From Prosopocoilus inquinatus (Eukaryota; Arthropoda; Insecta; Coleoptera; Lucanidae), in the NCBI GenBank assembly GCA_036172665.1, contig CM069877.1, positions 26,561,001 to 26,625,000 on the forward strand: 64,000 bases of DNA, given 5' to 3'. Below the pieces are notes generated by a model that saw only the letters and a list, made by a program, of their open reading frames with translations, ran no database searches and had not been told where the DNA came from. The number at the start of each line of letters is the position of its first letter. Position 1 is the first letter of the stretch. The translations under genes and the position numbers were made by a program. Shown here piece by piece: positions 744 to 54,742 of this stretch.

Positions 744-1175
744 TCACCCGAATACCACTTTCGCGGGAGCCTCCCCTGTTGTCTCATGAACAGATGAGCG
801 GTATGCCATTAGAAACAGGGGGATGTACGTGTCCCAGTCCCTCTGATGATTGGAAACGACCTTGGACAAATGTCGGTTGATGGTTCTATTGAACCTTTCC
901 AGCATTCCGTCCGACTGTGGGTGGAGTGCAGTTGTTCTAGTTTTTCGTACGCCGAGCAGAGTACACACGTTCTTGAAAAAGGTCGATTCAAAGTTCCTTC
1001 CTTGGTCTGAATGCAGTTCCATAGGTGCACCATACCGACTGATCCATTCCCTGACAAGGACTTCCGCAATAGTGACTGCCTCTTGGTTAGGTAGGGCGTA
1101 AGCTTCAACCCACTTGCTAAAGTAGTCCATTACCACGACGATGTACTTGTTTCCACCATTCGTTTCTGGAACCGG
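744..1175 (-). pseudogene. Integrase catalytic core
   Basis: Retroviral-type DDE integrase core. The first Asp is at the end of the preceding segment (VAIDVAG); the frame then shifts by one base near 1175 and continues YIVVVMDYFSKWVEAY. The second Asp is in HSDQGRNFES and the Glu in PQSDGMLERFNRT, with DD35E-like spacing. It catalyses 3'-end processing and strand transfer of the cDNA. The segment ends in TGA at 744-746 just after a conserved FG, and homology resumes immediately in the same frame, so that stop is a point lesion, not the natural end. Confidence 0.93.
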
Positions 1176-2179
1176 CCGGCTACATCGATGGCAACTCTCT
1201 CAAAAAGACTTCCAACGTTGTACTGTCTCATGCGGGCCTTACCCCGCCTGTGGGGACCGTTACTGGCTGCGCAGACTGCACACTTTCTGCACCAATCCTT
1301 CACGTCTTCCTTGCAGTTCACCCAGTAAAATCTTTCGCGCACCTTCTCCATAGTCTTCTTAACTTCCAGATGCCCTCCCGAAGTTCCATCGTGAAGTTCC
1401 CTCAGAACTTCTGGCACCCTATTCTTGGGGATTAGTAACTGTGTCTTCTGTTCCATGCCTTCCTGATTCTCTATGCTTCGTCTCAGAAGACCACGATCCA
1501 ACACTATGGAGTCCCACTGCGCCCAGTATGATTTTACGGACGGTGCACATGGTGCTACCTCTTCCCAGGTAGGCCTCGCGTCCCTGCTTTTCCATTCTAG
1601 CATTAATTTCAAATCCGGGTCGTTCTCCTGGTCTCTTCGCAGTTCTTCGCCTTGCCATTTGTCATCAACAACGGCTGTCCTCGCAGTCGTGGCTACTTTC
1701 TCGTCCAAACGACTACAGTGCTTACAGTCTTCGGCACAGGGTCTTCTCGACAAAGCATCGGCATTTCGATGGCTAGTTCCTGCCCGATGCTGAATTTCAA
1801 AATCGTACTCCTGAAGTCGTTCGATCCATCGTGCAACTTGCCCTTCTGGGTTCTTCAAACGGAGAAGCCATTTTAGAGCGGCATGGTCGGTCCTCAGGAG
1901 GAAGCGTCTACCATACAAGTACTTGTAGAAATGTTCTATCGTTTTTACGATGGCTAGCAATTCCCTTCTTGTGACGCAATAGTTTCGTTCCGGCTTTGAT
2001 AGGACTTTACTGAAGTAGCCGATCACCCTCTCTTGCCCCTCTTGTATCTGGGAGAGTACGCCACCAATCCCAACGTTGCTAGCATCTGTGTCCACGACGA
2101 ATTTTCCTTCCGGGAGAGGATAACTCAGAATAGGAGCACTAATCAAGTACTGCTTTAGTTGTTCAAAGCCAATTTGACA
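1130..2179 (-). pseudogene. RNase H and integrase zinc-binding domain
   Basis: The region continues the RT frame directly after the TAG at 2180-2182. RNase H is shown by FVVDTDASNVGIGGVLSQ, a Glu in TRRELLAIVK, RTDHAALKWLL and the HRNADALSRRP tail. It degrades the RNA strand of the RNA:DNA hybrid. A spacer follows, then the HHCC integrase zinc finger (LHDGTSGGH ... CRKCAVC), which multimerises integrase. The last residues before the stop (FQKRMVETSTSSW) come from reading past a one-base deletion near 1175. The first methionine here is internal to the polyprotein and is not a start. Confidence 0.93.
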
Positions 2180-5100
2180 CTATTGGTCCCATTCAAATGG
2201 ACGACCTTCTTCAGTGAGTTTTGTCAACGGTTTAGCAATGTCTGCAAATCCAGGAACGTAGCGCCGATAGTAAGTGCACAGGCCAAGGAAACTCATTATT
2301 TGGTGTTTATTTCTGGGAGTTGGCCAGTCTTTCACCACCTGAATCTTCACAGGGTCCACGGCGATTCCATTTCCATTAGCAATGTGCCCCAGGTAATTCC
2401 CTTCCTTCTGGAACAGGTGACACTTCTTGAGGCTAAGCTTTAGTCCAGCTCCGCGAAGCCGCTGGAACACTCCTTCCAGGTTCCTTAGGTGTTCGTCGAA
2501 CGTCTTTCCCACGACAATTATGTCGTCAAGGTACACCATGCACGTTGTCCAGGACAGACCTTTCAGAACCGTCTCCATTAACCTTTCGAATGTCGCTGGA
2601 GCATTACATAACCCGAATGGCATGACTGTGAACTGCCACAGACCCATACCAATGGAAAACGCCGTCTTTTCTCGATCTTCAGGCGCCAGCTCCACTTGCC
2701 AATATCCACTCTTTAAGTCCAAAGTTGAGAAGATCTTTGAGCCGGCCAGGGTGTCCAGGGTATCATCAATCCGTGGCAGGGGATAGCTGTCCTTCTTGGT
2801 GACATTGTTGAGTAACCGGTAGTCTACACAGAACCTGGTGGACCCATCCTTCTTCTTCACAAGCACTACTGGTGACGCCCACGGGCTGCTTGATGGTTCT
2901 ATCACATTATCCTTTTCCATCTCGCGAATAATGCGTTCCGCTTCCTCACGCTTCGCCAACGGTAATCGCCTTGGAGCTTGACGGATAGGTCTTTCTTCTC
3001 CAGTCTCTATTTTGTGTTTCACGACATCAGTTCTTCCCTTGGATCCATTTTCTACCTCAAATACACCTTGATAGCGGCCGATCAGATTCTTTGCTTTTGT
3101 CTTCTGGTCTGGAGTCAATTCCTGGGCTGTTGACATAACCATTTCCCATAATTTCCTTGGGACTTTCGCTTCTGGCACGTTTGCTTCAAGGTGGCGGGAG
3201 ATGGAGGACACCATGGTGCAGCTTCCCAAGATGGTTCCTTTCTTGATACTGACGGAGAAACAATTGACGTTCATCAGGCGGACAGGTACTTCCTTCTTCG
3301 CTGTCAACAACATTTTCCCAACGAGGACTCCTCTTCCAATCCTTTGATCATCAGTATGAGGTTCAACCATAATGACTTGCCCATCTTGAAAAACACCGTC
3401 CAGTTTAGCGTCGACGATAACCTCAGTCCTGCTGGGTAATACAACGTCTTCAGCGAGGACTACTCGAGCGGCCACGTCTCCTCGTTGATGTAGAATCAAC
3501 TCCTCATTATTGACTGCCATCACGCCACGCTTTAAGTCCAATTGGAACCCGTGGGCACACATGACGTCCATGCCCAAAATTGCCTCGTCCTCTATGTCTG
3601 CCACCAGTGCACGGTGTTTTATTGGAGTTGAACCAATGGTGATGATAACCTCTACTTCACCGTGGACAGTTGCTGATGTTCCAGTTGCAGTTTTCAGTCT
3701 CCACTTGGTCGGCTCGGTGCGTCCAGATGACTTAATGACGTCGGGTCTTAGGATGGTCTTCGTCGCGCCCGTATCCAATAACATGGTGTGAGGAATGTCA
3801 TCAATGGTAACATCCACGAAGACACTGCTGGTTAACTGCCGTAGGGATATTACTTGTTTGGATTTCGTCTTTGGGGGCCTTTGAATACGGGTCGGCGTCT
3901 GCCCCTCTGCACCGACCAGGCTTAGTTTAACTGTGGCTTCCTTGGATCCTGTCTGGGCTTTGGACATCGCCTGCGAACATGTCCTTCCTCCTGGCCACAC
4001 TAGCGGCTTCTTCTGCTTGAAGACCTGTTCCACAATGCGGCGAACATCCTCGGCGGTGGTATATTCCCTGGGTTGCTCCTTCATAGCAGATCCCACCTTG
4101 GAGTTAGCGAATTCTTCCTCTTCTTCCTCTTGGAAGTCCATAGCCGCTCGTACCTTGACATGCCCTCTTGAAACTCGTCTTGCCGCTTCAAATTCCAAGG
4201 CATAAGCCAATGCGTTCTTGGACGTCTTCGGATGGGTCATTCTCAATGCCTGCTGGTTGTCTGGGTCACGGATTCCATCTATGAAGGTCTGCACCGTCAA
4301 ACATTTGAGGAATTCAACAGGAGCTGTGGGATATGCCAACTGGGCCAGACGCGCTACGTCTGCTTCGAATTCCTGAAGACTTTCTCCGGATTTCTGACAG
4401 CGATTCCTCAACTGCGCATGGTATACCTCGGTCAGATGGGCCTGTCCGTAACGCATTTCCATCCTATTCACCAGCTTGTCGAAGTCTTCTTGTTCCTCTG
4501 GCGGCATCGTCTGTAGCACATCGATAGCGTCCCCTCTCAAGGCCACAATTAACGAAGTGGCTTTTTCGCTGGCCGTCCATCTGTTCGCCTTTGCTGCTGC
4601 TTCGAACTGTTTGAAGTAGTTGGGCCAAGAAGACTTTCCATCGAACGTTGGTGGTTTTATTTTCAATTTCGAATTTTCTGCTGGTCCTTCCACAATTCGG
4701 GTTTCATTATTTTCTAGTATTTCTACTGGTAGCTGATCCCGGAACACTCGCAACCCCGCCATGATTTGTTCCAGATTTTTGATTTTTTTATCCTGCTGGA
4801 ATATTATTTCTTCCACATTTTCTTGCAGGTTTCTTGTTTCTTCCGATATTTTTACCACTAGTTTATCTTCGAGTCCTTTCGTCTGTTCTAGAAATTCACC
4901 CTTCAAATTTCCGGACTGTTCTAGAAGTTTCTCGTCGAAATTTCTGGATTGTTCTAGAAATTTCTCGTCTAAGTCTCTAGATTGTTCCAACAATTTATTT
5001 TGTAATTTGTCGAAATTTCCAGATTGTTCTAGAAGCTTCTCCTCTAAATTTCTAGATTGTTCTCGAAGTTCGTCCTTGAAATTTCCAGATTGTTCTAGAA

Positions 5101-5605
5101 GCTTCTCTTCTAAATTTCGGGATTGTTCTCGAAGTTCGTCCTTGAAATTTCCAGATTGTTCTAGAAGCTTTTCCTCTAAATTTCTGGATTGTTCTCGAAG
5201 CTTCGGTAAATTTCCAGACTGTTCTTGAAACTTCTCGTCCAAATTTCTGGATTGTTCTCGAAGTTCGTCCTTGAAATTTCCAGATTGTTCTCGAAGTTCG
5301 TCCTTGAAATTTCCAGATTGTTCTTGAAGTTCGTCCTTGAAATTTCCAGATTGTTCTAGAAGCTTTTGCTCTAAATTTCTGGATTGTTCTCGAAGTTCAT
5401 CTTTTAGGATTTTATTAAAATCGGCGGGACCACACGAAATTTCGAAGAGGAACGTCTCTGGATCTTCACCAGCTATCAACAAATCGCATCGGAGACGCTG
5501 TTGAAGTGCGCCTTTCAAACCACCGGTTTCTAACTCTCGTTCTTCCAATTCGGTTTTTAATTCGGCCACTTTTAAGTCTTTCAACAACACTTTTCTCGTA
5601 GCCAT
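2180..5605 (-). CDS. Gag-protease-RT polyprotein, truncated by TAG
   Basis: A 1141-residue frame starts 96 bp inside the 5' LTR. Residues ~8-45 resemble a SAP DNA-binding domain (VAELKTELEERELETGGLK). Residues ~70-265 are a heptad/hendecad coiled coil made of 11-residue repeats (LLEQSGNFKDE, LREQSRNLEEK). Residues ~317-480 are a Gag capsid domain (PPTFDGKSSWPNYFKQFE). Protease is at ~600-700 with catalytic DTGA, and RT at ~900-1130 with WASPVVLVKKKDGSTRFCVDYR, the YLDD active site at ~1024 and FLGLCTYYRRYVPGF. The frame ends at a TAG where homology continues in frame, so the stop is a mutation. The usual CCHC knuckle between Gag and protease is absent in this frame but visible as a remnant in another. 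Confidence 0.94.
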   Translation of the reverse strand: MATRKVLLKDLKVAELKTELEERELETGGLKGALQQRLRCDLLIAGEDPETFLFEISCGPADFNKILKDELREQSRNLEQKLLEQSGNFKDELQEQSGNFKDELREQSGNFKDELREQSRNLDEKFQEQSGNLPKLREQSRNLEEKLLEQSGNFKDELREQSRNLEEKLLEQSGNFKDELREQSRNLEEKLLEQSGNFDKLQNKLLEQSRDLDEKFLEQSRNFDEKLLEQSGNLKGEFLEQTKGLEDKLVVKISEETRNLQENVEEIIFQQDKKIKNLEQIMAGLRVFRDQLPVEILENNETRIVEGPAENSKLKIKPPTFDGKSSWPNYFKQFEAAAKANRWTASEKATSLIVALRGDAIDVLQTMPPEEQEDFDKLVNRMEMRYGQAHLTEVYHAQLRNRCQKSGESLQEFEADVARLAQLAYPTAPVEFLKCLTVQTFIDGIRDPDNQQALRMTHPKTSKNALAYALEFEAARRVSRGHVKVRAAMDFQEEEEEEFANSKVGSAMKEQPREYTTAEDVRRIVEQVFKQKKPLVWPGGRTCSQAMSKAQTGSKEATVKLSLVGAEGQTPTRIQRPPKTKSKQVISLRQLTSSVFVDVTIDDIPHTMLLDTGATKTILRPDVIKSSGRTEPTKWRLKTATGTSATVHGEVEVIITIGSTPIKHRALVADIEDEAILGMDVMCAHGFQLDLKRGVMAVNNEELILHQRGDVAARVVLAEDVVLPSRTEVIVDAKLDGVFQDGQVIMVEPHTDDQRIGRGVLVGKMLLTAKKEVPVRLMNVNCFSVSIKKGTILGSCTMVSSISRHLEANVPEAKVPRKLWEMVMSTAQELTPDQKTKAKNLIGRYQGVFEVENGSKGRTDVVKHKIETGEERPIRQAPRRLPLAKREEAERIIREMEKDNVIEPSSSPWASPVVLVKKKDGSTRFCVDYRLLNNVTKKDSYPLPRIDDTLDTLAGSKIFSTLDLKSGYWQVELAPEDREKTAFSIGMGLWQFTVMPFGLCNAPATFERLMETVLKGLSWTTCMVYLDDIIVVGKTFDEHLRNLEGVFQRLRGAGLKLSLKKCHLFQKEGNYLGHIANGNGIAVDPVKIQVVKDWPTPRNKHQIMSFLGLCTYYRRYVPGFADIAKPLTKLTEEGRPFEWDQ
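4893..5400 (-). repeat. 33-bp/66-bp tandem repeats coding a Gag coiled coil
   Basis: About 15 tandem units of 33 bp, many paired as 66 bp, lie within the gag frame. Each codes an 11-residue block of the type E-Q-S-x-N-F/L-x-x-x-L-x. Because units are multiples of three, copy-number change keeps the frame. One unit is shortened near 5200 (reads NLPKLREQ). Confidence 0.9.
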
Positions 5606-5682
5606 TGTTTTTTCCGATACTGTACTTATCTAATAATCTGATTAAATTTAATTTACTTTAAATCGTTTATTTATTTGCACAA

Positions 5683-6050: not shown

Positions 6051-6302
6051 ATATGTTCTTTTTTTTAATGGAACACCTATATATTATTGCACTATCAGAT
6101 GTCTCATTATCAGTGGACGAAATTAATATAAGGTTTTATTTACCTAAAGTTTATCGTTTTCAAGATATTGACAATTTACCGGTAAAAAGTTTGCAAAATT
6201 TGTTATGCCATAAATTAGTTATTTTTAAATATTTTGTTTTAAATTTTGGTGGATACCAAAATTTAAAATTATTTAATTATTAGAAAACAGAAATGTATAT
6301 TT

Positions 6303-6366
6303 CAAGCTATGTTTCTGCTGACGAAGCCTCAAACAGGGCTGAAACAGCTGTACAGAGGCTGCTCGA
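6303..6366 (+). ncRNA. Hammerhead ribozyme, family A copy 1
   Basis: Core CUGACGA and GAAAC are separated by stem II AGCCU/GGGCU. Stem III is the self-complementary ACAGCUGU and the base at the cleavage position is A. Stem I is UUCUG/CAGAG. The outer stem I arm is mismatched (UCAAGC instead of UCGAGC). Confidence 0.65.
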
Positions 6367-7233
6367 GGTTTTCACTGCAATCAAAAACGATTTGCAATAA
6401 AATTTTTTAAACTTTCATTTTGCTTTGATATCAAGCATGGCCGCCTTGCATTGGGACTTATTAGGCAGCAAATCCGCTTCAGCTTGTCTATCCTACTGCA
6501 ATGTCAGGTCAATAAGCGACCGTAGCATGTCGCTGTTTTATATATTCATTAAGATTTTAGAGATATAAATTTAAAAAATTTCTACGTTCAAAGTTTAATA
6601 GCTATACGTAAAAAATCTTATACTATTTCCATTTAGATTTTTTTAGAAAAATGGTAATTTGCGTTGTGAATAGCCCTATGTAAATTACCCGGAAAAATCG
6701 AGTTCATCATACATTTCTGTTTTCTAATAATTAAATAATTTTAAATTTTGGTGGATACCAACTCGATTTGGTGGATATCAACTCGATTTTTCCGGGTAAT
6801 TTACATAGGGCTATTCACAACGCAAATTACCATTTTTCTTGGTATCCACCAAAATTTAAAATTATTTAATTATTAGAAAACAGAAATGTATGATCAACTC
6901 GATTTTTCCGGGTAATTTACATAGGGCTATTCACAACGCAAATTACCATTCTTCTAAAAAAATCTAAATGGAAATAGTATAAGATTTTTTACGTATAGCT
7001 ATTAAACTTTGAACGTAGAAATTTTTTAAATTTATATCTCTAAAATCTTAATGAATATATAAAACAGCGACATGCTACGGTCGCTTATTGACCTGACATT
7101 GCAGTAGGATAGACAAGCTGAAGCGGATTTGCTGCCTAATAAGTCCCAATGCAAGGCGGCCATGCTTGCTATCAAAGCAAAATGAAAGTTTAAAAAATTT
7201 TATTGCAAATCGTTTTTGATTGCAGTGAAAACC

Positions 7234-7297
7234 TCGAGCAGCCTCTGTACAGCTGTTTCAGCCCTGTTTGAGGCTTCGTCAGCAGAAACGTAGCTTG
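7234..7297 (-). ncRNA. Hammerhead ribozyme, family A copy 2
   Basis: This is the inverted partner of copy 1 in the palindrome. The same core and stems are present on the minus strand, with an A at the cleavage position. Confidence 0.65.
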
Positions 7298-7387
7298 AAA
7301 TTCCCACTGCAATGTCAGGTCAAAAGCCGATCGTAGGATGTCGCTGTTTTATCTGTTCATAAATAAATTGGACAAGTCGTGGGAATT

Positions 7388-7452
7388 TCGAGCTACGTTT
7401 CTGCTGACGAAGCCCCAAACAGGGCTGAAACAGCTGTACATAGGCTGCTCGA
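7388..7452 (+). ncRNA. Hammerhead ribozyme, family A copy 3
   Basis: CUGACGA, stem II AGCCC/GGGCU, GAAAC and stem III ACAGCUGU are intact, and the outer stem I UCGAGC/GCUCGA is perfect. The inner stem I is weakened (CAUAG instead of CAGAG). It lies about 100 bp after copy 2 in the opposite orientation. Confidence 0.65.
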
Positions 7453-7499
7453 GGTTTTCACTGCAATCAAGAACTATTTGCAACAAAATTTTCTAAAAT

Positions 7500-8171
7500 C
7501 TTAGTTATAATTGTAATTTAATAAACAAAATTGATTTATTTGTGTTTTTATGTACAATATTATGGTGACGGAAATCTGGAACATTTTCTATAAATTTTTC
7601 ACACAACTAACGGTCTTTTAATAAATGCATTCATGTTTTATCTCTCTAGTCATGTTTTATTATCGGTTTGTATTTTGTGAGACGATTCTTATCTTCTGTG
7701 TCTAATTTAGAATTATTTCTTTTAATTTTTGATGAGCGTTTCACGAAATAGCAATTAAAATATGTGGTTTAAGCATGATGAAGTACCATCATATTACAAC
7801 AATGACACTAGAAAATGATTTAACTAAATAGTTAATTCGATAAATAAGTGCGTAAGAATTTTGAGTTGCTACCCGAACTTCCGTCTGATTTCACTATCTC
7901 TTTACGCCAGAATATAAATGGGTTTCCTATGGACCTCGAGATCAAGAAACAGAAATATTTAGAATTGCATTTGTGTGTATTATATTATACTATTAATAAA
8001 TTTTTATATATTTTTTAATCTCCGAATTAAAAATGTATAGAATAAATTGTAGTATGTGATAGTTTTTCCTTGTTAAACTAAGTTTACTGCTTTTGTGGTA
8101 TTTTGTATATTTCGTACTATGAATACAATGCAAAACAACTGAACAATGATATGATTTATTAAAAAAAAAAA
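7500..8171. other. AT-rich, no gene seen
   Basis: No coding similarity, RNA gene or repeat boundary recognised on either strand. A poly-A run at 8160-8172 abuts the next family A fragment. Confidence 0.6.
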
Positions 8172-8278
8172 AACTTTCATTGTGCTTTGACAGCAAGCAT
8201 GGCCGCCTTGCATGGGGGACTACTACGACAATGTCTGGTCAAAAAGCGATCGTAAGATGTCGCTATTTTATCTATTAA
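8172..8278 (+). repeat. Family A fragment lacking the ribozyme
   Basis: Matches the 3' half of the family A unit (GCATGGCCGCCTTGCATGGGGG, then GTCAAAAAGCGATCGTAAGATG), with an internal deletion. The hammerhead part is missing. Confidence 0.85.
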
Positions 8279-8469
8279 TGATATGATTATAAAGAAATTG
8301 AATTTAGTTCAATTTAAAATTTTTTTTTTTAATTAAAAAAATCGGTGTATTCTAAATGTAGGTTCAAACATTAAAACACATCTACTGTTATATGCTACAA
8401 TGTTATTACCAAATGTATGCATTAGAAACAAAACAAAATCCAATTTTATTTATTAAATTACAATACAGC

Positions 8470-8660
8470 TGAGATTTTAAAGATTCAAATTTAAAAACTT
8501 TCTACGTTCAAAGTGTAAGAGCTATACGTAAAAAAGTCTGGAAACCTTAGTAAGGGATGTTTTAAACTATGTGTTCATATACAGGGCGTTCCGTTTACAT
8601 TTTTTTAGAAAAGTGGTAATTTGCGTTGTGAATCACCGTGTGTAAAGTACCCGGAAAAAA
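8470..8660 (+). repeat. Family A-associated flank with CAGGGCGTTCC end
   Basis: It is similar to 6560-6700 and, inverted, to 6900-7050 and 39130-39240 (TTTCTACGTTCAAAGT, GGTAATTTGCGTTGTGAAT). It holds an ACAGGGCGTTCCGTTTACA junction, a sequence type common at insect repeat ends. Confidence 0.7.
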
Positions 8661-8869
8661 ATCGACTATACTTTTCAGAATTAATAAAAAATGTCTTAGA
8701 TGTGTCCGATTTTCACTGAATTTATCCTTCGAAATTGTGCACTTTTTGTAGGTACGATTTTTCAAGTTTTTTTTTTTAATTTTTACTCATGTCTACATAA
8801 TACGATTTTCATATAAGAACCTTTCTGTAAGTGTGATAAGTTAAATACTATTAGCTTTGGTAAGGGGAG

Positions 8870-13615: not shown

Positions 13616-13657
13616 CACTCAACGTTTCGCTATAGATTTATAGCTTCGTCAAGAGTG
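13616..13657 (-). ncRNA. Hammerhead motif, family B copy 1 (core mutated)
   Basis: CACUC/GAGUG stem I, GCUAUA/UAUAGC stem II and GAAACGUU are present, but the core reads UUGACGA instead of CUGACGA, which changes the invariant C3. It is probably inactive. Confidence 0.6.
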
Positions 13658-25665: not shown

Positions 25666-27110
25666 TTATTCACTTGTAAAATCTAAATCTGAGTCAGGTG
25701 GCGATTCTGATGATGAGCCAGTATTTGCTGTTATAATTAATTCCTCCACCATATCTTCCACAATATTATCAAGTTGGTACATTTTGTTTTCTTCTGCAAT
25801 AGCATGTTTAACGCAATTTTCCCAATGTTCAGCATTTACAAGATCTAATCCCTCGAGCAGCAATGTTTTGACCTCGGGCAACTTGAATGTTTTATTATTA
25901 GCAGCTACATGATGTTTTACTTGAGCCCAAACAAGTTCTATTGGATTTAAATTGCAATGATAAGGGGGCAATCTTAATATTGTACGGCCAGTTTCTGTTA
26001 CCATTTCATCTATAACGTAACTCACTGGATTTTCACTTACATATTTTTTTGTTATATCAAGAAGTTGAACTTTTAATAAAGTGTTGTCTGTTACAATTCC
26101 TTTCAATGTAAGCCATTCAATTATTGCGCCTTTCTTCCATGAAGAATTAGGAATTTTATCCGTCTTGACTGAGTGATAAGGCGCATTGTCCATTACAATT
26201 ACACATCCAGGTTCAAGATTTGGTAATATATTTTTCATCCACTCCGTAAAAACTTGACTGTTCATGTCTTCATGATAGTCACCAGTTTTTTTTGATTCAA
26301 ACAGTAGCAATCCGTTATCAACAAAACCAGTTTCACTACCAATGTGAAGCACAATCAGACGTTTTCCTTTTCCAGAAGGATTTTGTAAACCAAGTGACAA
26401 TCCATCTACAAATGCTTGTCGAGCAGTAGTCACTGTTGTATCTTTCCACACTTTTGGCTTTGTGTGACCGGCATTCACCCACGTCTCATCCACGAAATAT
26501 ATTTTCTTTCCCATTGTACGAAATTTTCTAATGGAGTTTAAATAATTACGTCTCTACAAGACAATATCTTGACGTTCGATTAAAATACAATTTCTGCTTC
26601 GTTTCTCCCATTTAAATCCCAATTTTCTCAAAATTTTCCACAATGTTGTACGATGAATTACAGGTAAAGTATCATCTGTTTGTAGAACCTATAAATTTTT
26701 TTACTTAGTTTCAAAATAACAGTAATAAATGTAAATGTATTTACCGTTAAAATTTTTGAGCAAGTAGGTAATTCATTCTTAAGATAAAAAGAATGCACAT
26801 ATCTTCTAATAGATTTTTCATGAGCTTCATCGAGTTTATTGAAAATTGTATCACGGTTTCGCTTCTTGCTAGGAGATCGTAGAATTCCCGTGCTTTCCTT
26901 TTCTTTTACGATAGCCCACATTGTTGCCTCTCCAATGCCAACCATCTTTGAAGCCAGTTTTATTGAAGCTGACTTGGAATTATCATGGTGGTATTGAACA
27001 AAAGCATTATATGCCATAACTCTTTGGTCACTTCGAATATGCTTCCCTTGAGGGTTTCTCGAGGAGCCAGCTTCCTCTCGTACGTCCATATTAGCACTGT
27101 AATATATCAT
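25666..27110 (-). pseudogene. DDE transposase (IS630-Tc1-mariner group) with one intron and one stop
   Basis: Exon 1 (27110-26745) codes an N-terminal helix-turn-helix region (SASIKLASKMVGIGEATMWA). A 56-nt GT-AG intron (26744-26689) separates it, in phase 0, from exon 2 (26688-25666). Exon 2 continues HRTTLWKILRKLGFKW and, after an in-frame TAG at 26554-26556, the catalytic part. There the residues are Asp in FVDETWVN, Asp in VIVMDNAPYH and Glu in LPPYHCNLNPIELVW. I count 83 residues between the second Asp and Glu, much wider than classic DD34E/D and close to the DD82E 'Sailor' type. The C-terminus is acidic. Alternative start: the methionine at 27089. One stop makes this copy inactive as it stands. 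Confidence 0.88.
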
Positions 27111-29206: not shown

Positions 29207-29587
29207 AAATTCAATATGCACCTGTTATTCTGGCAACGTATAATTTGTAATAAATTATGTACTTAATTGATTTTGACTAAAAACTGAAATTAGCTTAAAA
29301 TTGTGAACAGAACATAATATATTAATAACTTTTATTGCTCAACAGAAAGATAAATTCAATTACAAGGCAATCTGTATAACAGCAAGAAAGCATGTGTAAT
29401 ACTGACGACGCTAAGAGTTGAGGAAAAAACTAGTCCAAGAATATTCATTAATAAACATCGAAATAGCTTTCATTACTACTTATTAGTTTGAGAAAAGAGA
29501 TAAGACTATCAAAGAATAAATCAGCTTTCATACAGCAGATATTAAATGTAGAACACTTTAAATAAACACGCGATCATGATAATAAAT
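29207..29587. other. AT-rich, no gene seen
   Basis: Nothing recognised. Confidence 0.55.
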
Positions 29588-29940
29588 TATGAACATATAA
29601 AATAGCGACATCTTACTATCGCTTCTTGACCTGACATTGCAGTAGGATAGACAAATTGAAGCGGGATTTGCTCCTAATAAGTCCCCCATGCAAGGCGGCC
29701 ATGCTTGCTGTCAAAGCATAATGAAAGATTTTAGAAAAATTTTGTGCAAATCGTTTTTGATTGCAGTGAGAACCTCGAGCAGCCTCTGGACAGCTGTTTC
29801 AGCCCTGCTTGGGGCTTCTTCAGCAGAGACGTAGCTCGACATTCCCACTGCAGACCAAAAACGACTTGCCCAATTTATTCGCAATTGCGATGTAAGAATG
29901 ATGAACATATAAAATAGCGACATCTTACTATCGCTTTTTT
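29588..29940 (-). repeat. Family A, 1.1 units of a ~311-bp monomer
   Basis: GAACATATAAAATAGCGACA... occurs at 29591 and again at 29903, a 312-bp period, so the locus is slightly more than one head-to-tail unit. The unit holds one ribozyme (29775-29839), the GCATGGCCGCCTTGCATGGG segment and CTGCAATGTCAGGTCA. A T-rich run follows the end. Confidence 0.85.
29775..29839 (-). ncRNA. Hammerhead ribozyme, family A copy 4 (best copy)
   Basis: Read on the minus strand: outer stem I UCGAGC/GCUCGA (6 bp), internal loop, inner stem I CUCUG/CAGAG (5 bp). Then core CUGAAGA, stem II AGCCC/GGGCU with loop CAAGCA, GAA, stem III the self-complementary ACAGCUGU, and C at the cleavage site. Every invariant position is satisfied, including a GUC-like UC cleavage dinucleotide. 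Type I topology, in which loops in stem I and stem II could dock. Confidence 0.8.
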
Positions 29941-31020
29941 TTTATTTTTATTTTTCCTAAGATAATAAATTAGTTCTAGTCGTAGAAATGTAGAAAGTAC
30001 TTGTTTCTCTCGTTGCAACTCTAGGAATCCGATTACTTAATTTAACTTAATTTGAGACAAAATTTTTATCACAGTTAAAAAAAGCACTGCAGTAAAAATT
30101 ATGGAAAAGTGGAATGAAAAATTACTGTTAAAATTGTGAACTATAAATTTCTTACATCCCCTCAAACTCAAATTCGAGATCAACTTAAGAGTTAAATATC
30201 TTTATTCTTTCAAGCATTTAAAAATGATCCGTAGAAAAGAGATTTCGAATTGCAATGAGATCTCAAATATGAAATCATAGCAGCTTACCTTGGAAAAGAG
30301 ATCTGGCCGGAAACAAGTGTAATATTCAGGGTATCAATGTTATGGATCATAATTTCTAGTTGATAACTGAGCAAAAAACAAATCTCGGAGTATTGTGATG
30401 AATTATTATATTTAAGGATCGGCCGAGTAAATAAAAAGACAGTTCACATTAAAGTTTCGAATTGACGGTTCGGCTTATGTTTATATAAATTAGTTTATAG
30501 TGTTATTTTCCGCGTTAACATAAATTAGTGTTTGTAGTTACTCTAGTTTATAAATTATATCGAGATTTTATTTTAAAATATTTAAAACTAATCCTAAATT
30601 ACTTACAGTGTATTCATATCACGCTTGATGAAATGTTGAGCTCTACACATTCAAAGTTCTACGATACAGACGTTGCGGTATGAGAAAAATTGAAAAATAT
30701 ATGAAATTATTCTTTTTCATAGATAGAATTCATGATTCCGTATTTGAGATCGTACAATAATACTAAATGACTTCCAAATCAAATTTGCGCATACCGTGGA
30801 AAATAAAGGCACTTTACTCTTCGTCGATTTCAAATATTCTGATTCCCTCGGCATATCATAAGAGGTATTCAATCGTTGATACGTTCATCTTGAATTTGGG
30901 AAGATGCAGGAGCTTTCATAAAAAAGAAATTAAAGCCTTCGTATGGCAAAGCTTGGCAGTGAGCTAATAAATCACTCTGTATATTGACGGTAATGGTAAA
31001 ACTTTTTAAGTTTTTAAAAA
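29941..31020. other. No gene supported
   Basis: AT-rich. A 66-codon frame at 30767-30967 has no recognisable domain. Confidence 0.5.
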
Positions 31021-35573: not shown

Positions 35574-37052
35574 ATGTCTTTAAAAATTAACTTCTCCAAT
35601 GCTTGCCGAGATATATTAATTTCCGAAGTGCAAACAAAGCCTGCATTATGGAATGATCAGCATGCAGACTATAAAAAGCCCGATATCACTAAGTTGTTAT
35701 GGAATGAAGTTGCAGCGGAAGTAGGTTTGTCGTCAGGTAAGTATTGTTCAGTAGTGAATGTATTATTTCTGTGCGTTGTTTGATTAACGGAGAGTCGATG
35801 TTAAGGTGATATTTTCGTAAATGCCTTTAAAAAATAAACACGTTTAAATTAAAAAATTCAAATTCATTGAAATAACTTAGAAATGTATCGTAAAACTTGT
35901 AACTTTTATAATTTGTCGGACAGATTTTAATATCACTATAAATATCTGCGTTTCGTTGTACACTGAGCATTACAAGTAATGTCACCAATAATATATTTTT
36001 TCTAAATCAAAGGATTATCCATGAGATTAGTGATTTAGTGATTTTTTGAGGAACTTTTTCTTGTTCATGTAACTTAGGTTGGTATTAGGCCTTAATTTAT
36101 GTTGTCATTTGTCTTTTGCCTTATCGGCTTAGTTTGGAAATGGCAGCTGTTAGCGGATTCCGCTTAAACAAATTTGTTATTAGTTTTTTTTTAAAATTTT
36201 GTAAAGATAATTTCATAATATTTTTGTATCGTAGAGTTTTGAAAATGGAATTTTGTTGTATAATAAACGAATTTTTTAAAAATAAATTTTTGAAAATAAC
36301 CTGCAAAATTTTATAGTGACTCAGGGTTTCTCTTTCGATGAATTTTATTCTAAAAAATATATTTTTTTCAATGTTTTACTTAATTGATAACAAAATTATA
36401 GCTTTATAAATATACAAACGTGTAAGTAAGCCTTAACGCAAATATGGCAGCAGAATATGGTTTATAATGTAATTGTTTTTTTTTAGGAAAAGATGCGAAA
36501 ATGAAATGGAAAAATTTGAAAGATAAATTTCGTATAGAACTTCGCAAAACTACAAAAAATGAATACTACACATCCAAATGGCCTTTCTTCAAAAAGATGT
36601 TGTTTGCCAAAAATACTATACTTCCAGGTACAAGAGTTGGAAGTATTTCACAGCAATTGCAGAACATTGACAGCGATGCAGATGCTGAAACTACAGATAA
36701 TATTGACGATACAGATTCGGATATTGGACAGTCAGAAACTCCTGCATTATCGTCACCAGTTAGCTGTTCTTCATCCAGTAACGCTCACAGCAATACTCGC
36801 GCAGCATTAAACCGTAATAAGATGAGACCTTCAGAGAAGGAAATCGATAGATATTTGGAAATAGAGAAAAACGAAGTAGATGTTTTTGAACAGGGACTGA
36901 AGAAATCTGCTAACCTGACAAACAATTCTGAATATCATTTTTTAATGAGTTTATTGCCCTACTTTGATGAATTGGATTGTTTAGAAAAATTAGAAATAAG
37001 AGGAAAAATACAAACCTTGATGACAGATGCAATTCGACGTAAACGGCACTGA
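35574..37052 (+). CDS. MADF-BESS domain protein, two exons
   Basis: Exon 1 is 35574-35736 and exon 2 is 36487-37052, with a GT-AG intron (GTAAGT ... TTTTTTTTTAG) in phase 1, giving 242 residues. Residues ~14-97 form a MADF domain split by the intron: LISEVQTKPALWNDQHADYK, LWNEVAAEVG, then KMKWKNLKDKFRIELRK and WPFFKKMLF. This is the Adf-1-type Myb/SANT DNA-binding fold, with the expected tryptophans. An acidic serine-rich linker follows, then a C-terminal BESS-like motif (HFLMSLLPYFDELDCLEKL) that mediates protein contacts. Such proteins are sequence-specific transcription regulators in insects. It is the only intact multi-exon gene seen here. Some Harbinger transposons carry MADF proteins, but no partner transposase is present. 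Confidence 0.9.
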
Positions 37053-37664: not shown

Positions 37665-38030
37665 GAACAGATGAAATAGCGACATCTTACGATCGGTTTT
37701 TGACCTGACATTGCAGTAGGATAGACAAATTGAAGCAGGATTTGCTCCTAATAAATCCCCCATGCAAGGCGGCCATGCTTGCTATCAAAGCATAATGAAA
37801 GTTTCTAGAAAAATTTTGTGCAACTCGTTTTTGATTGCAGTGAAAACCTCGAGCAGCTTCTGGACAGCTGTTTCAGCCCTGCTTGGGGCTTCTTCAGCAG
37901 AGACGTAGCTCGACATTCCCACTGCAAACAAAAACGACTTGTCCAATTTATTCGCAATTGCGATGTAAGAGTGATGAACAGATAAAATAGCGACATCTTA
38001 CGATCGCTTTTTGACCTGACATTGCAATGT
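37665..38030 (-). repeat. Family A, 1.2 units of the ~311-bp monomer
   Basis: GAACAGATGAAATAGCGACATC at 37665 recurs at 37976 (311-bp period). It continues into a plus-oriented partial unit at 38031-38165, forming a head-to-head junction. Confidence 0.85.
37849..37913 (-). ncRNA. Hammerhead ribozyme, family A copy 5
   Basis: Same structure as the best copy: core CUGAAGA, AGCCC/GGGCU, ACAGCUGU, C at the cleavage site, outer UCGAGC/GCUCGA. Inner stem I is CUCUG opposite CAGAA, so the last pair is lost. Confidence 0.75.
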
Positions 38031-38165
38031 CATGTCAAGTCGTTTTTGTTTGCAGTGGGAATGTTGTCTCTGCTGAAGAAGCCCCAAGCAGGGCTGAAAC
38101 AGCTGTACAGAGGCTGCTCGAGGTTTTTACTGCAATCAAAATCGAGTTGTACAAAATTTTTCTAA
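38031..38165 (+). repeat. Family A partial unit, plus strand
   Basis: It runs from GTCAAGTCGTTTTTGTTTGC through the ribozyme to AAATTTTTCTAAAGTC. About 8 bases are missing just before the ribozyme (outer stem I, 5' side). Confidence 0.8.
38064..38122 (+). ncRNA. Hammerhead ribozyme, family A copy 6 (outer stem lost)
   Basis: Core, stem II, stem III and inner stem I CUCUG/CAGAG are intact with A at the cleavage position. The outer UCGAGC arm is deleted, which would remove any stem I-stem II loop contact. Confidence 0.65.
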
Positions 38166-38414
38166 AGTCTTTACACTAATCTACTCAAACACATTGGTCC
38201 ATCATTTTAGACTAAACTAATTGTTCGTAATTAATTCCGTTTTATATTTTATCGTAGAACACTCGCTCGCTTGGCATAATATTACCACACATAAAATAAT
38301 CAGTAATAAGTTTCTTCTGTTACCGTCAATGTACTTTTCGCGCTTCATCCGAGGCCAAACAATCACGATTTCACCAACTGCGGCGTACTGAACTCGTTAC
38401 TAACTAATCATCCG

Positions 38415-38515: not shown

Positions 38516-39234
38516 ACAAATTTCCCATTTTTATACTACTGGTTCAGGATGTAGCAAAGTGAGTTTCTTAAGTTTCGGGTCCAAAGATTGAAATTGTCTG
38601 CGTCTCGCCAAACACATTTAATGACACAGCAGGTTATTTGTTTTGAATATATTACGATATGCTATGTATAGCATTCTTAAGTAAGTTCAAATAAATTGGA
38701 TGTCAATTCTCAGCACGGAATTGCGAGCTAAGCAGTGGTCAGTAATTCATGCTACACAATTTCCGCAGTATTTAAGCCTGTGTCGAAGACCGTACTTACG
38801 AAATGCTAACTGAACAATTTTGTCAATTAAACCTAAAAATACGCGCGTTAAAATCTGTGTAACCCCAAAAGTAAAAATGAATTTTGTTAATAATTTTTCA
38901 AACTTCCTCAAGGTCGTTATATTGATCCAATTTTTCTCACTTTGTAACATATTCTTATCTTCTTTTCTGATCAGTCTTCTCTCACTCTCCAATAATTAGT
39001 CCATTTCGTTTTTCTTAGTGGGGCAGCCGAAAACAACGACGTCGCCGCGACGTCCGATTCTGGGTGAAGCTATCGTGAAAGTGTTGTTTTGTCTTCTTTG
39101 TTTAGTTTGTTTTTTCTTCTGTATATGAACATATAGTTTAAAACATCTCTTACTAAGGTTTCCAATAGTATAAGACTTTTACGGATAGCTCTTAAACTTT
39201 GAACGTAGAATTTTTTTAAAATTTATATCTTTAA
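38516..39234. other. No gene supported; family A flank at its right end
   Basis: An 81-codon minus-strand frame (38747-38992) has no domain I recognise. From about 39130 the sequence matches the AAACATCTCTTACTAAGGTTTCC flank seen inverted at 8545-8575. Confidence 0.5.
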
Positions 39235-39302
39235 AACTGCAGACCAAAAACGACTTGCCCAATTTATTCGCAAATAAATTGGGCAAGTCGTTTTTGGTCT
39301 GC
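39235..39302. repeat. Perfect 34-bp-arm hairpin
   Basis: CTGCAGACCAAAAACGACTT... is followed immediately by its exact reverse complement ending GGTCTGCAG, with almost no loop. It is the family A 5' segment duplicated in inverted form. Confidence 0.92.
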
Positions 39303-39565
39303 AGTGGGAATGTCGAGCTACGTTTCTGCTGAAGAAGCCCCAAGCAGGGCTGAAACAGCTGTCCAGAGGCTGCTCGAGGTTCTCACTGCAATCAAGAACG
39401 ATTTGCACAAAATTTTTCTAAAATCTTTCATTATGCTTTGACAGCAAGCATGGCCGCCTTGCATGGGGGACTCATTAGGAGCAAATCCCGCTTCAATTTG
39501 TCTATCCTACTGCAATGTTAGGTCAAAAAGCGATAGTAAGATGGCGCTATTTTATATGTTCATAA
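39270..39565 (+). repeat. Family A unit, plus strand
   Basis: A nearly complete unit from AAATTGGGCAAGTCG through the ribozyme, GCATGGCCGCCTTGCATGGG and GCGATAGTAAGATGGCGC to TATGTTCAT. It is about one monomer. Confidence 0.85.
39313..39377 (+). ncRNA. Hammerhead ribozyme, family A copy 7
   Basis: UCGAGC/GCUCGA outer stem, UUCUG/CAGAG inner stem (one G-U pair), CUGAAGA, AGCCC/GGGCU, GAA, ACAGCUGU, cleavage C at 39363. All core bases kept. Confidence 0.78.
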
Positions 39566-45581: not shown

Positions 45582-45912
45582 ATAGGGTATTCCATTTAAA
45601 ATAAGAAAGTTGATATCACTTCCGGCGAAACCGGAAATCCTATGACGACTATCTGTATGTCGGAAAATTCCATTTTTTGTTTAGTTTATTGTCTCCAAAA
45701 TTCAGATTAATCGATTAATAAATAAAGATTCTAGAAGGGTGAGCACATGGCGCGGGACACCCGGTATAGTTTATTTTAGATTTTCACATATTAATTTATA
45801 TTTACTTACATTTAGACATATATATCAAAAAGAAAAAAGAAGACATTTTTATGATTTTGTCAGTGTGATTAGGTTGTTTTTAGATCTTTTTTTAGTGCTT
45901 TTAAGTTGGTAG

Positions 45913-45955
45913 CGTACTGAAGAAGGCACCTTAGCTGCCGAAATACGTATCTACG
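45913..45955 (+). ncRNA. Hammerhead ribozyme, family D
   Basis: Stem I CGUA (45913-45916) pairs with UACG (45952-45955). CUGAAGA is followed by one A and hairpin GGCA/UGCC, then GAA and the self-complementary stem III AUACGUAU. Cleavage C is at 45951. All invariant bases are kept. Only one copy in the window and the host repeat is unidentified. Confidence 0.72.
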
Positions 45956-45959
45956 GATT

Positions 45960-47925
45960 TAAAAATTATTGTGGGCGGAGGTTAATTTCAATTATCTCTT
46001 AAAACTGTCTCCTTTACTATTTTAGTTTAGTCTTCGGGAATCATTTGTTTATTTCTTTTGATAATATAATAAACGTTTTATTATTCTGAATGTGTGTTTA
46101 TTTCTTGTCCAATGGTAAACTGAAATTTGTATAAATTACCGAAATAACTATTGTGCTTTACAGAAATGACTAAAATCAAATCAGTTTCCCTTAGTTATAT
46201 TGAAACGTATGTATGTATGATCTTTGCTGATGCTGAAAATTCAGCCTAATTTTATAATACTGGCAAACAAAATTTGAAATAATTTTCAAATTTTTCACTA
46301 CTTTCTTTGTCAAACTGGACAATTATATATCTACCCTTACGTACTGACTATTCCTATAGACTTCACAGGATACACGTTGTTAGGACACCATTTATACTAG
46401 CCTGCATTTTATGAAGTCGCAGTTTCTCGTTTCTCGACTTCATAAAATACAGGGCGGTGTACATATGGATGACTAGATATACATCAACTTGTCCCGGAAA
46501 ATACAATTTGCCAATTAGTTGAATGTGTGTGTGTAAAGATGACGCACCAATGAACGGAAGAACTGTTTACAATCAAATTACCAATACCAACGTAACTCTA
46601 AATGAATACTAATTTAGATTCAATGAGATAAAATTTTATTAATGTATTAAGTCAACGATATTAAATATTGCAGCCAGACATGCTTTGTTTTGTGGAAAAC
46701 GTCTTCGTCGTATGCATTAGACAGTATACGTATAAATAACTCGCCGGTTAAATCTCAGGCCTCGTCATAAGCGCATTCTATTTATTCTATTGAGTACCGT
46801 TTTAACGGTTCATCACGTATTCAAATACCTACCACCGATGATAATTTTCGTGGTGTTGTAACGATTTTTATATTTTTAGAAGAAAATAAATTAATTGAAT
46901 AAATGATGTTACATGGTTACAAAAATACTTCCAGCCCTTTAATACGTGAACAAATCAAAGACCGCGCGTTTGCGCCGTTGCGCTCTTTGCCAACATCGCG
47001 CTGGTCGAATATTTAACTGGTCGACTGTATTCTCTGCCTCACAATGTGACCGGGACGAAACGCGCGTCCTTGTCTGCGCTGCGGTGGTACGCAATCGAAC
47101 CTCTCTCTCTCCTGACGTCAACCGTAGATGTGAAGGGACCGAGTACAAAAATAGCTGCTATCGCTCAAATGTTTTATAGAGACCAGCATTCGGTTCACAT
47201 GTTTTTCATGGGTTGCTAGATTTAAAAAAAACCGTTTCTCGTTAGAGAGGAAATTGTTAATGCCGCATAAATTAATCTGAAAACTGGAGAGCCGCGTAAT
47301 TTTAATACGTCTGAACTAAGCCGAGTGGATAGTTAAATGATGTAATAGCGGAAAATAAGACTAAATATTTTACGTGGAACTATTTCACCGTCATCTATGT
47401 TTGATATTTTGTTTAATTAAGAAGAAATTTATGTTAATCTGTGTTGCTGTTGTTTTATTGCCGATTTTACAAGTGCACTTGCTGTGTCAAATCGCGCATT
47501 AAGTACAAAGAGATTACAGATATAACTATCTTAACAGCGATAAAATTGCAGCGGGTAAATTTTTTTCAATAATAAAAAAAATATGTCTAATCAGCAAAAG
47601 CAGATTAATTAACTTCACAATAACTAATTGTGCAAAGAAATAGTAATTGAATTCTTTACAGAAAAACTTTTTCGCGACCTCTTTTGCTCCCTATAAATAG
47701 GTAGGTGTAGGTATGTACACAATTAATTACGTTTGCTTAATTAATTTAAAAAAAAATTAAAAAGAAGAGTGTAAGTATTTCTACTTAATTAATTAATTAT
47801 TTTATTTTATTTGCTTAAATGTTTATATGTAAAATGCAAATTTGGTGATTATTTTGTTACAAAGCTTACAGGAAAATACAGTGTGCCCGAAGTTCGTAAG
47901 GACAGCATGGGTAACTTCTGTATTT
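45960..47925. other. No gene supported; one hairpin
   Basis: A 20-bp-arm hairpin (CTGCATTTTATGAAGTCG / CGACTTCATAAAATACAG) lies at 46399-46454. A GC-richer patch at 46950-47150 has mirror frames on both strands but no domain, and a GGTTCGATTGCG string on the minus strand lacks the rest of a tRNA. Confidence 0.5.
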
Positions 47926-53622: not shown

Positions 53623-53949
53623 TTTATCATGTCTGTTTCATAAAATTATAAAATAATAAATTCCTCACATATTTGTTTAAGAAAATATCTTTTACCATAG
53701 ATGTTCGTTATGTAAATGTAAGGAATAAAGGTCTGTTAACGTCTGCTATTCATAAAACAAGTCACTTTAAAAAATCATTGACATATAATATAGGAGCCCT
53801 GTTTCAGTGAAGTTGGCCCAATTATTAAAAATATTAATACTGTGGATTTCTTAAAAATATTCTCAGATATTTTCAGTTTCAAGGTGTCGTTTAGTAAAAT
53901 AATTTGAATAAATAGTGAGAAAACCCCTCGACCACATTAATTCACTGAA

Positions 53950-53992
53950 AGCGAATACGTATTTCGGTAACGAAGTTACCATCTTCAGCGCT
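53950..53992 (-). ncRNA. Hammerhead ribozyme, family E copy 1
   Basis: Minus strand: stem I AGCG/CGCU, CUGAAGA, one U, stem II GGUAAC/GUUACC with loop UUC, GAA, stem III self-complementary AUACGUAU, cleavage U. Core intact. Confidence 0.72.
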
Positions 53993-54020
53993 AAACTGAT
54001 ATTAATATCAATATCAGTTT

Positions 54021-54057
54021 AGCGTATTTCGGTAACGAAGTTACCATCTTCAGCGCT
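54021..54057 (-). ncRNA. Hammerhead motif, family E copy 2 (3' part missing)
   Basis: CUGAAGA, stem II and GAAAUAC are present, but the unit jumps to GCUAAACUG after AUAC, so half of stem III and the cleavage base are gone. Confidence 0.5.
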
Positions 54058-54085
54058 AAACTGATATTAATATCAATATCAGTTT

Positions 54086-54128
54086 AGCGCTGAAGATGGT
54101 AACTTCGTTACCGAAATACGTATTCGCT
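54086..54128 (+). ncRNA. Hammerhead ribozyme, family E copy 3
   Basis: Exact mirror of copy 1, with all stems and core bases present. Cleavage base U54124. Confidence 0.72.
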
Positions 54129-54742
54129 TTCAGTGAATTAATGTGGTCGAGGGGTTTTCTCACTATTTATTTGGATTACAGCCACAGGTTTTGTGTTGCT
54201 TTGTGATTATTAAAATAATTTGATTTCAACAAATGTATGACTTAAACCTATTAAATTTGCTAGTCACTTTTTCGAGAATAAAAGAGCTGTTTTGAAGCAA
54301 ATGGTAATGTTTGACGTTGTAATAATGGCGACGTAACACAGTGATAACCATGTGGTAACTCTATCTGTAATTTTCGTCCATTTAGTTTCGTCAGTTTGTA
54401 ATATTACATATATTTTCGTGTACCTATTTTTTTTAGTTATTCCTATTAGTTATAATTTAGTTTTATATGTTAAACGTTAATAAACAATTGACATATCATT
54501 ACAGTATTATATTGCTTTTTATAAATTTTCTTTCTACAAGGAGGGTTTTCTTAGAAAAAACTATATTCGTTAGTTGGGCCAACTTCACCGAGACAGGGCT
54601 CGGAGTTATATTTTATAATAGTGTTCCTGACAGCTACAAATTGCTTCTTGTAATTCACTTTAAGAGAAAGATGCGCACTAAATTACTTAAATAACACACT
54701 TAATATTTCTTTGTAGCCAAAATCTGTACTGTTTTTACATTA

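Follow-up and report, generated by a model that had tools for sequence, protein, structure and literature searches.

The 312-nt hammerhead unit and its copies in the window

The window, that is, the whole 64,000-nt stretch of DNA analysed, is AT-rich (33% GC) and arthropod-like. It harbours Gypsy-type gag-pol frames (744-5629), whose best relatives (52-64% identity across most of the query length) come from spiders, other animals and metagenome contigs, with one record filed under a moth Wolbachia. A DDE_3 (Tc1/mariner-like) transposase frame (25669-26553) has named relatives mainly in aphids and beetles, and the region 36468-37049 shows a MADF match (E 2.6e-06) and a weak BESS match, as in a type of insect DNA-binding protein. 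The transposon proteins point to arthropods in general as the host. An ADP/ATP translocase frame in locus L030 of the genome had mostly beetles among its named matches, at 76-80% identity, although a fish, a bird and a nematode with longer proteins are among the five highest bit scores; this single gene, which may be a paralogue, makes a beetle the probable source.

Seven hammerhead cores of the form CUGANGA are found in the window, at 6318 (+), 7282 (-), 7404 (+), 29823 (-), 37897 (-), 38073 (+) and 39329 (+). One pattern with no mismatch retrieved them all and gave no match in 100 dinucleotide shuffles. The seven copies of one fold listed in the preliminary description are thus real, although the positions given there lie about 15 nt off the cores and fall in stem I. 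To describe the copies we used one genomic unit (u1-u312) as a ruler, and we call the outer end of an arm P1 when it falls in u296-u12 and P2 when it falls in u160-178, windows that were fixed post hoc. The features are as follows.

6299..6549, plus strand: P1 arm with the hammerhead at 6318 (+), inside a 99% inverted duplication
7051..7502: two-arm head-to-head insertion, P1 arm (7282, minus) and P2 arm (7404, plus)
7039..7050 (left) and about 7492-7503 (right, overlapping the P2 end): its 12-bp target duplication TCTAAAATCTTA
8169..8282, plus strand: eighth copy, without hammerhead, with a P1 outer end, A-rich filler inward and a 12-bp duplication AATGATATGATT
29590..29960, minus strand: retrozyme insertion with its P1 outer end at about 29590, made of about 40 nt of a previous unit and one full 312-nt unit
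29783..29829, minus strand: type I hammerhead core with stem I, stem II and a palindromic ACAGCUGU stem III, matched by Hammerhead_1
within 29783..29829, minus strand: hammerhead cleavage predicted after GAAACAGCUGUC from the core fold
29940-29960: T-rich filler (A-rich in the hammerhead sense) of the 29.6-kb insertion
29578..29589 (left) and 29961..29972 (right): 12-bp target duplication GATAATAAATTA of the 29.6-kb insertion
37665..38172: two-arm head-to-head insertion, P1 arm (37897, minus) and P2 arm (38073, plus)
39236..39563, plus strand: P1 arm with the hammerhead at 39329 (+), in which a 38-nt perfect fold-back replaces the P2 arm

A target duplication was looked for and not found around the 37665..38172 insertion, and the 39236..39563 copy has no clear one. 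The segment 6299-6761 is a 99% inverted duplicate of 7301-6839 and no separate insertion. The seven copies do not form a single head-to-tail array. The inverted duplication (6299-6761 / 6839-7301) is recent, given its 99% identity, and spans a retrozyme arm and part of an AT-rich repeat that we call repeat X. The latter is also the target of the 7051..7502 insertion, with a homologue lacking the insertion at 8423-8687. Repeat X copies lie near 6552-6761, 8423-8687 and 39119-39236, and two insertions (7039-7050 and about 39236) occurred at nearly the same point of it; a target preference of the retrozyme for repeat X is possible.

Rfam searches at gathering scores missed the hammerhead, and none was reported for the 64-kb window at E<=10. 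On a 106-base stretch, Hammerhead_1 scored 25.8 bits (E 9.3e-05), below its gathering score of 34. The covariance-model check proposed earlier thus gave the hammerhead on a short stretch only, with a score under the gathering threshold, and missed it over the whole window. The core pattern, this score and the fold together support the type I hammerhead with tiny palindromic stem III and unit of about 312 nt described at first. A single motif folds best with the CUG of the core paired to the CAG of stem III (-53.3 kcal/mol, as against -47.3 when the hammerhead is forced), whereas two motifs together form a double hammerhead with an 8-bp stem III (-110.5 kcal/mol). Because the double hammerhead forms from two motifs and the single motif folds otherwise, these models indicate that the ribozyme is probably of the dimer kind. 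Its loop sequences, UACGU and CAAGCA, may resemble those of a schistosome hammerhead. Substitutions affect 28 of 1365 core sites and 178 of 5790 sites elsewhere, only a weak sign of selection acting on the ribozyme core.

Genome-wide, the exact core occurs 6,885 times per strand in the 649.6-Mb assembly (both strand counts as printed), and the reversed-pattern control gave none. Full head-to-tail neighbours are present in the genome at 311, 312 and 624 bp, in agreement with the expectation that copies with the 311-bp period exist elsewhere. The 312/311-bp periods reported at 29.6 and 37.7 kb are real as well, but the repeated part amounts to 43-51 bp, i.e. about 1.15 units. ORF and Pfam scans of the window assigned neither a long frame nor a Pfam domain to the unit, no LTR-type ends were seen when the copies were aligned, and a scan of IMG/VR for the core gave 0 matches. 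A match to the plant miRNA MIR2606 was discarded, as it reflects the inverted arm pair. With a type I core, a 312-nt unit carrying one hammerhead each and head-to-tail repetition, the repeat looks, from its sequence, like a non-autonomous metazoan non-LTR retrozyme.

Paired arms and their ends in sampled insertions

We collected loci (L001-L068) for 90 of 100 listed core places in the first 6.2 Mb of contig C1. With the window included, and L009 dropped as a duplicate of L008, they yielded 85 clusters of unit matches; this sample was chosen by the ribozyme core from one contig and is not random. In 62 of the 85 clusters the left arm is on the minus strand and the right arm on the plus strand, so that the heads are together with the sense outward. 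When these 62 two-arm insertions were aligned, 56 had one P1 and one P2 outer end, two were P1+P1 (L028 and L032), none was P2+P2, and four had another end (L003, L023, L062 and the 39.2-kb copy of the window), none of their odd-ended arms exceeding 312 nt. P1 and P2 are 140 nt apart on the 312-nt unit, or 172 the other way round. As P2 lies 60 nt and P1 200 nt from the core region, sampling by the core should favour P2/P2 insertions, yet we found 0 among 62.

Forty-five of the 62 two-arm insertions lie between duplications of at least 10 bp (10-15 bp, exactly 12 bp in 29), as opposed to 18 of 1223 swapped-flank controls. With wider flanks, such duplications were detected in 45 of the 56 P1+P2 insertions; some are low-complexity AT runs. 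In the other 23 clusters, a single arm was recognised or the form was complex. On visual inspection, some of them have a very short second arm (13 nt in L020), and filler that is A-rich in the hammerhead sense replaces the second arm in the single-arm insertions of the window at 29.6 kb (29940-29960) and 8.2 kb (8157-8173) and in L066. The arms, both of their ends and the duplications are read directly from the aligned copies. On this evidence, the P1/P2 head-to-head arm pair is the rule for retrozyme insertions, although head-to-tail units also exist. It takes the place of the head-to-tail dimer, which had first been regarded as the local structure.

We also performed a check free of ribozyme selection, using exact patterns of the P1 and P2 ends and their places alone, which gave 89 clusters. 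Among the 55 with at least two end-pattern matches, 40 were minus/plus, 15 same-strand and 0 plus/minus. Thirty-one clusters have no exact core nearby; 17 of these have at least two matches, namely 12 minus/plus, 5 same-strand and 0 plus/minus. The 40 divergent clusters comprise 22 P1/P2, 8 P1/P1 and 10 P2/P2 pairs (8, 2 and 2 in the core-free set), but this check is cruder than alignment, since an end that carries a mutation escapes it and the pattern next inward is counted in its place. Alignments were available for 12 of these 18 same-end clusters and showed 10 of them to be P1/P2.

The best account of the P1+P2 rule is a shared RNA on which the two target strands prime. An occasional second priming by a LINE reverse transcriptase, yielding inversions as in LINE-type twin priming, would share the target-primed signature, and the window holds a LINE-like reverse transcriptase remnant at about 31.5 kb (a translation by eye, with no Pfam match at E<=0.1). 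It is extremely unlikely to account for the retrozyme insertions: their outer ends have no poly(A), there are two fixed internal starts instead of one 3' end and a variable one, and the two-arm form is the rule, a form that the Penelope element of this genome has as well (see below).

The inner junctions bear on whether a single cDNA could have made both arms. In 59 insertions the inner arm ends fall within 5 nt of each other 5 times and at different unit positions 54 times, and the junction overlap is at least 2 nt in 36 of the 59, compared with 16.6% in simulated blunt joins. The variable junctions and their microhomology, both direct observations, argue against fold-back copying and for the joining, by microhomology, of two independent cDNAs. 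Self-priming, in which one cDNA folds back and copies itself, was proposed for rotifer inverted Penelope repeats from an antisense template and predicts head-to-head inverted repeats (PMC3846280; here and below, PMC numbers stand for excerpts of the articles). The perfect 38-nt fold-back of the 39.2-kb copy and the five near-coincident inner ends are what it would produce. Fold-back should, however, give coincident inner ends throughout, and it yields no second fixed outer end. We therefore consider self-priming very unlikely in general; it is refuted for most copies and may explain a minority.

The arms also report on the template. Arms longer than 312 nt were found for 10 of 58 P1 and 12 of 56 P2 ends (22 in total), the longest being 737 nt or about 2.4 units. 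Nearly all P2 arms (55 of 56) and about half of the P1 arms (30 of 58) continue through the ribozyme cut site, after u112, without having been cut there, and the inner ends do not accumulate at this site. The template was thus not a ribozyme-cut linear monomer. Furthermore, rare variants of a left arm recur in its own right arm in 33 of 129 cases, compared with 87 of 3331 for arms of other insertions, and paired arms are more alike (median identity 98.1%, n=41, against 95.2%). Dual priming on two separate retrozyme RNAs, one per target strand, has been suggested for human L1 (PMC2837659) and would yield two arms and duplications; sister RNAs could even account for the shared variants. We nevertheless regard it as improbable, since sites chosen independently should often have given P1/P1 and P2/P2 insertions, of which 2 and 0 were seen among 62, and rare variants are common to both arms of an insertion.

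If both strands prime on one RNA molecule, an uncut linear multimer is a possible but somewhat doubtful substitute for a circle. In vitro, the recombinant PAc Penelope protein worked on RNA that had not been cut (PMC11167929), and in arms of more than one turn rare variants recur in successive turns in just 4 of 37 cases, which is weaker than one circle copied twice would predict. Against the linear multimer, arms reach 2.4 units, yet the 100 listed places include just 4 pairs of same-strand neighbours within 1 kb of each other, and the RNA of other metazoan retrozymes is mainly circular (PMC7229834). The footprint of the arms lends support to the origin from multimeric or circular RNA put forward initially.

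Penelope-like elements of the same genome

The window harbours copies of two groups of Penelope-like elements.

53907..54210: two-arm head-to-head copy of a Penelope-like 3' part, with minimal hammerheads at 54090 (+) and 53988 (-); outer ends at reference sites 808 (left) and 847 (right)
53895..53907 (left) and 54211-54223 (right): 13-bp duplication TAAAATAATTTGA of this copy, read from the sequence
45843..46028, plus strand: fragment from another Penelope-like group, carrying a minimal hammerhead at 45917 (+) and 91% identical to L074

A search of the genome for GIY-YIG domains (PF01541) gave 150 scored matches of 2232 candidates; among these 150, neighbours within 10 kb are minus/plus in 47 cases, minus/minus in one and plus/minus in none. 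One locus, L088, combines RVT_1 (E 7.5e-14) and GIY-YIG (E 6.9e-07) in a single frame, with an open frame of 788 aa, and its 3' part contains the minimal hammerhead seen in the window at 54 kb. The 53907..54210 copy belongs to this family (98.5-100% identity in the 3' part), which thus unites a reverse transcriptase and GIY-YIG with head-to-head ends, a tail and a minimal hammerhead, as expected of Penelope-like elements. The group of L074 carries GIY-YIG too, and the genome has at least two Penelope groups. The hammerhead of the first group has 366 + 354 exact copies genome-wide. At 100 listed places, its neighbours within 6 kb are minus/plus in 36 cases, same-strand in 8 and plus/minus in none; three same-strand spacings of 2603-2604 bp correspond to the apparent unit length.

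Both ends could be placed in ten two-arm Penelope copies: L089-L094, L078, L081, L069 and the window copy at 53907-54210. L089-L094 were selected for close minus/plus GIY-YIG matches and are head-to-head by that selection, which did not concern their ends. L080 was excluded because one end lies beyond the sequence piece, and the end of L069 at 808 was settled by its duplication. In all ten, one end falls near 808 and the second near 847, so that one arm has a 39-nt tail, and the duplications measure 11-15 bp. Retrozyme and Penelope copies, as sequenced, thus share the heads-together form, two different fixed ends and duplications of about 12-13 bp, a common footprint that strengthens the early proposal of mobilisation by a Penelope-like reverse transcriptase.

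A similarity between the two RNAs was not significant (149 of 200 shuffles were as good, and 31 of 500 for the post-ribozyme regions), and a common 3' sequence in the style of SINE-LINE pairs was sought and not found. With its 312-nt, apparently non-coding unit and no significant similarity, the retrozyme is, judging by sequence, not a Penelope element, though it is inserted like one.

Other arrangements of hammerheads were observed. Two identical copies of a 65-bp palindromic unit occupy 53958-54089, where the two arms of the Penelope copy meet, and represent the repeated part of the Penelope hammerhead region. At G000:C1:53562804-53564633, three Penelope hammerheads lie on one strand with a 471-bp spacing, followed by an inverted one; their source was perhaps a short circle, non-autonomous and of Penelope origin. 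The window also contains a third family of hammerhead-like motifs, family B, at 13654 (-), 15154 (+), 21816 (-), 49373 (+), 49587 (+) and 60948 (+). Its motif consists of CUGANGA with one extra A, a stem II of GCUAU/AUAGC, GAA, a 5-bp stem I and, in most copies, a 4-nt palindromic ACGU. The copies have diverged, 13654 (-) and 15154 (+) are head-to-head, and family B matches none of the Penelope loci sampled here.

A model for insertion and comparison with known systems

Taken together, these sequence features make it likely that a Penelope reverse transcriptase inserts the retrozymes, using the two strands of the cut target as primers at two fixed positions on one RNA, circular or multimeric. 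We infer the involvement of the Penelope protein, a circular template and a single RNA molecule for both reactions. A retrozyme copy would be transcribed, and pairs of hammerheads sharing the 8-bp stem III ACAGCUGU would trim the RNA to 312-nt units, which would be re-ligated into circles by analogy with other retrozymes. A Penelope-like RT/GIY-YIG protein would cut the two strands of AT-rich DNA at points staggered by about 12 bp, and both 3' ends of the cut would prime on the retrozyme RNA, one at P1 (~312) and the other at P2 (~172). Each cDNA would extend over a variable distance, sometimes more than one turn, before the two cDNA ends are joined via short microhomology. The outcome would be arms with heads together, two unlike fixed outer ends, a variable middle and target duplications of about 12 bp.

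One mechanism might even serve both Penelope and retrozymes, and we see the chances of this as evenly balanced. A single RNA, probably circular, would bridge the staggered double-strand cut, and two reverse transcriptase units, perhaps a dimer, would start at its two fixed sites, one per strand. If so, pseudo-LTRs would result from more than one turn of the template and inverted pseudo-LTRs from the second cDNA, the Penelope 'tail' would correspond to the distance separating the two start sites, and retrozymes would be SINE-like parasites of Penelope. A testable prediction of the model is that each target strand has its own fixed start site on the 312-nt RNA.

These findings address which enzyme moves metazoan retrozymes and how the inverted, tailed ends of Penelope arise. 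Metazoan retrozymes, reviewed in PMC7761336, are described as short tandem repeats whose mover is unknown, with Penelope being 'a strong candidate' (PMC7229834, Cervera and de la Pena 2020). Purified Penelope protein cuts both target strands and extends them, starting inside the RNA; in vitro it uses two RNA start sites bounding the 'tail', with both strands behaving alike, and the later insertion steps are left unvalidated (PMC11167929). The thousands of young retrozyme copies and the abundant Penelope family of this probable beetle provide a statistical footprint that ties both questions together, and their sequences suggest that a Penelope enzyme puts such RNAs into chromosomes by copying a single RNA from two fixed starts at once.

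The repeat resembles the metazoan non-LTR retrozymes of PMC7229834 in its type I hammerhead, one per unit, its 312-nt length within the reported range of ~170-400, its low GC, its many dispersed copies and its short helix III. It also resembles them in the coexistence of Penelope-like elements with minimal hammerheads and in duplications of more than 4 bp. Unlike those retrozymes, which form tandem repeats from dimers up, it has head-to-head arms and duplications of about 12 bp, and the excerpts of PMC7229834 contain no description of a head-to-head, two-end architecture for metazoan retrozymes. In the open-access literature we recognised no report of such a retrozyme insertion form or of a beetle retrozyme.

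The cave-cricket and schistosome satellites have a hammerhead with a weak palindromic stem III that forms best as a dimer, and, like the newt satellite, they form mainly long tandem arrays, in contrast with the dispersed short insertions found here. The newt satellite likewise shares the weak palindromic stem III and the hammerhead that is best as a dimer (PMC7229834).

Penelope-like elements come close to the retrozyme in their head-to-head inverted repeats, minimal hammerhead and internal start of reverse transcription (PMC3846280; PMC11167929). Their inverted pseudo-LTRs, usually head-to-head and read as self-priming, have an optional 'tail' of 30-40 nt on one repeat and 8-10-bp duplications (PMC3846280). 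The retrozyme differs from the Penelope element in having no recognised protein and in the distance between its start sites, 140 nt (172) instead of 39. The rule of one end of each kind is seen here, and the excerpts of PMC3846280 and PMC11167929 contain no statement of it. As in L1 twin or dual priming, both target strands would prime cDNA, leaving an inverted arm and target duplications (PMC2837659). In L1, however, the second start varies and such insertions are occasional; in the retrozyme neither start varies and two arms are the norm.
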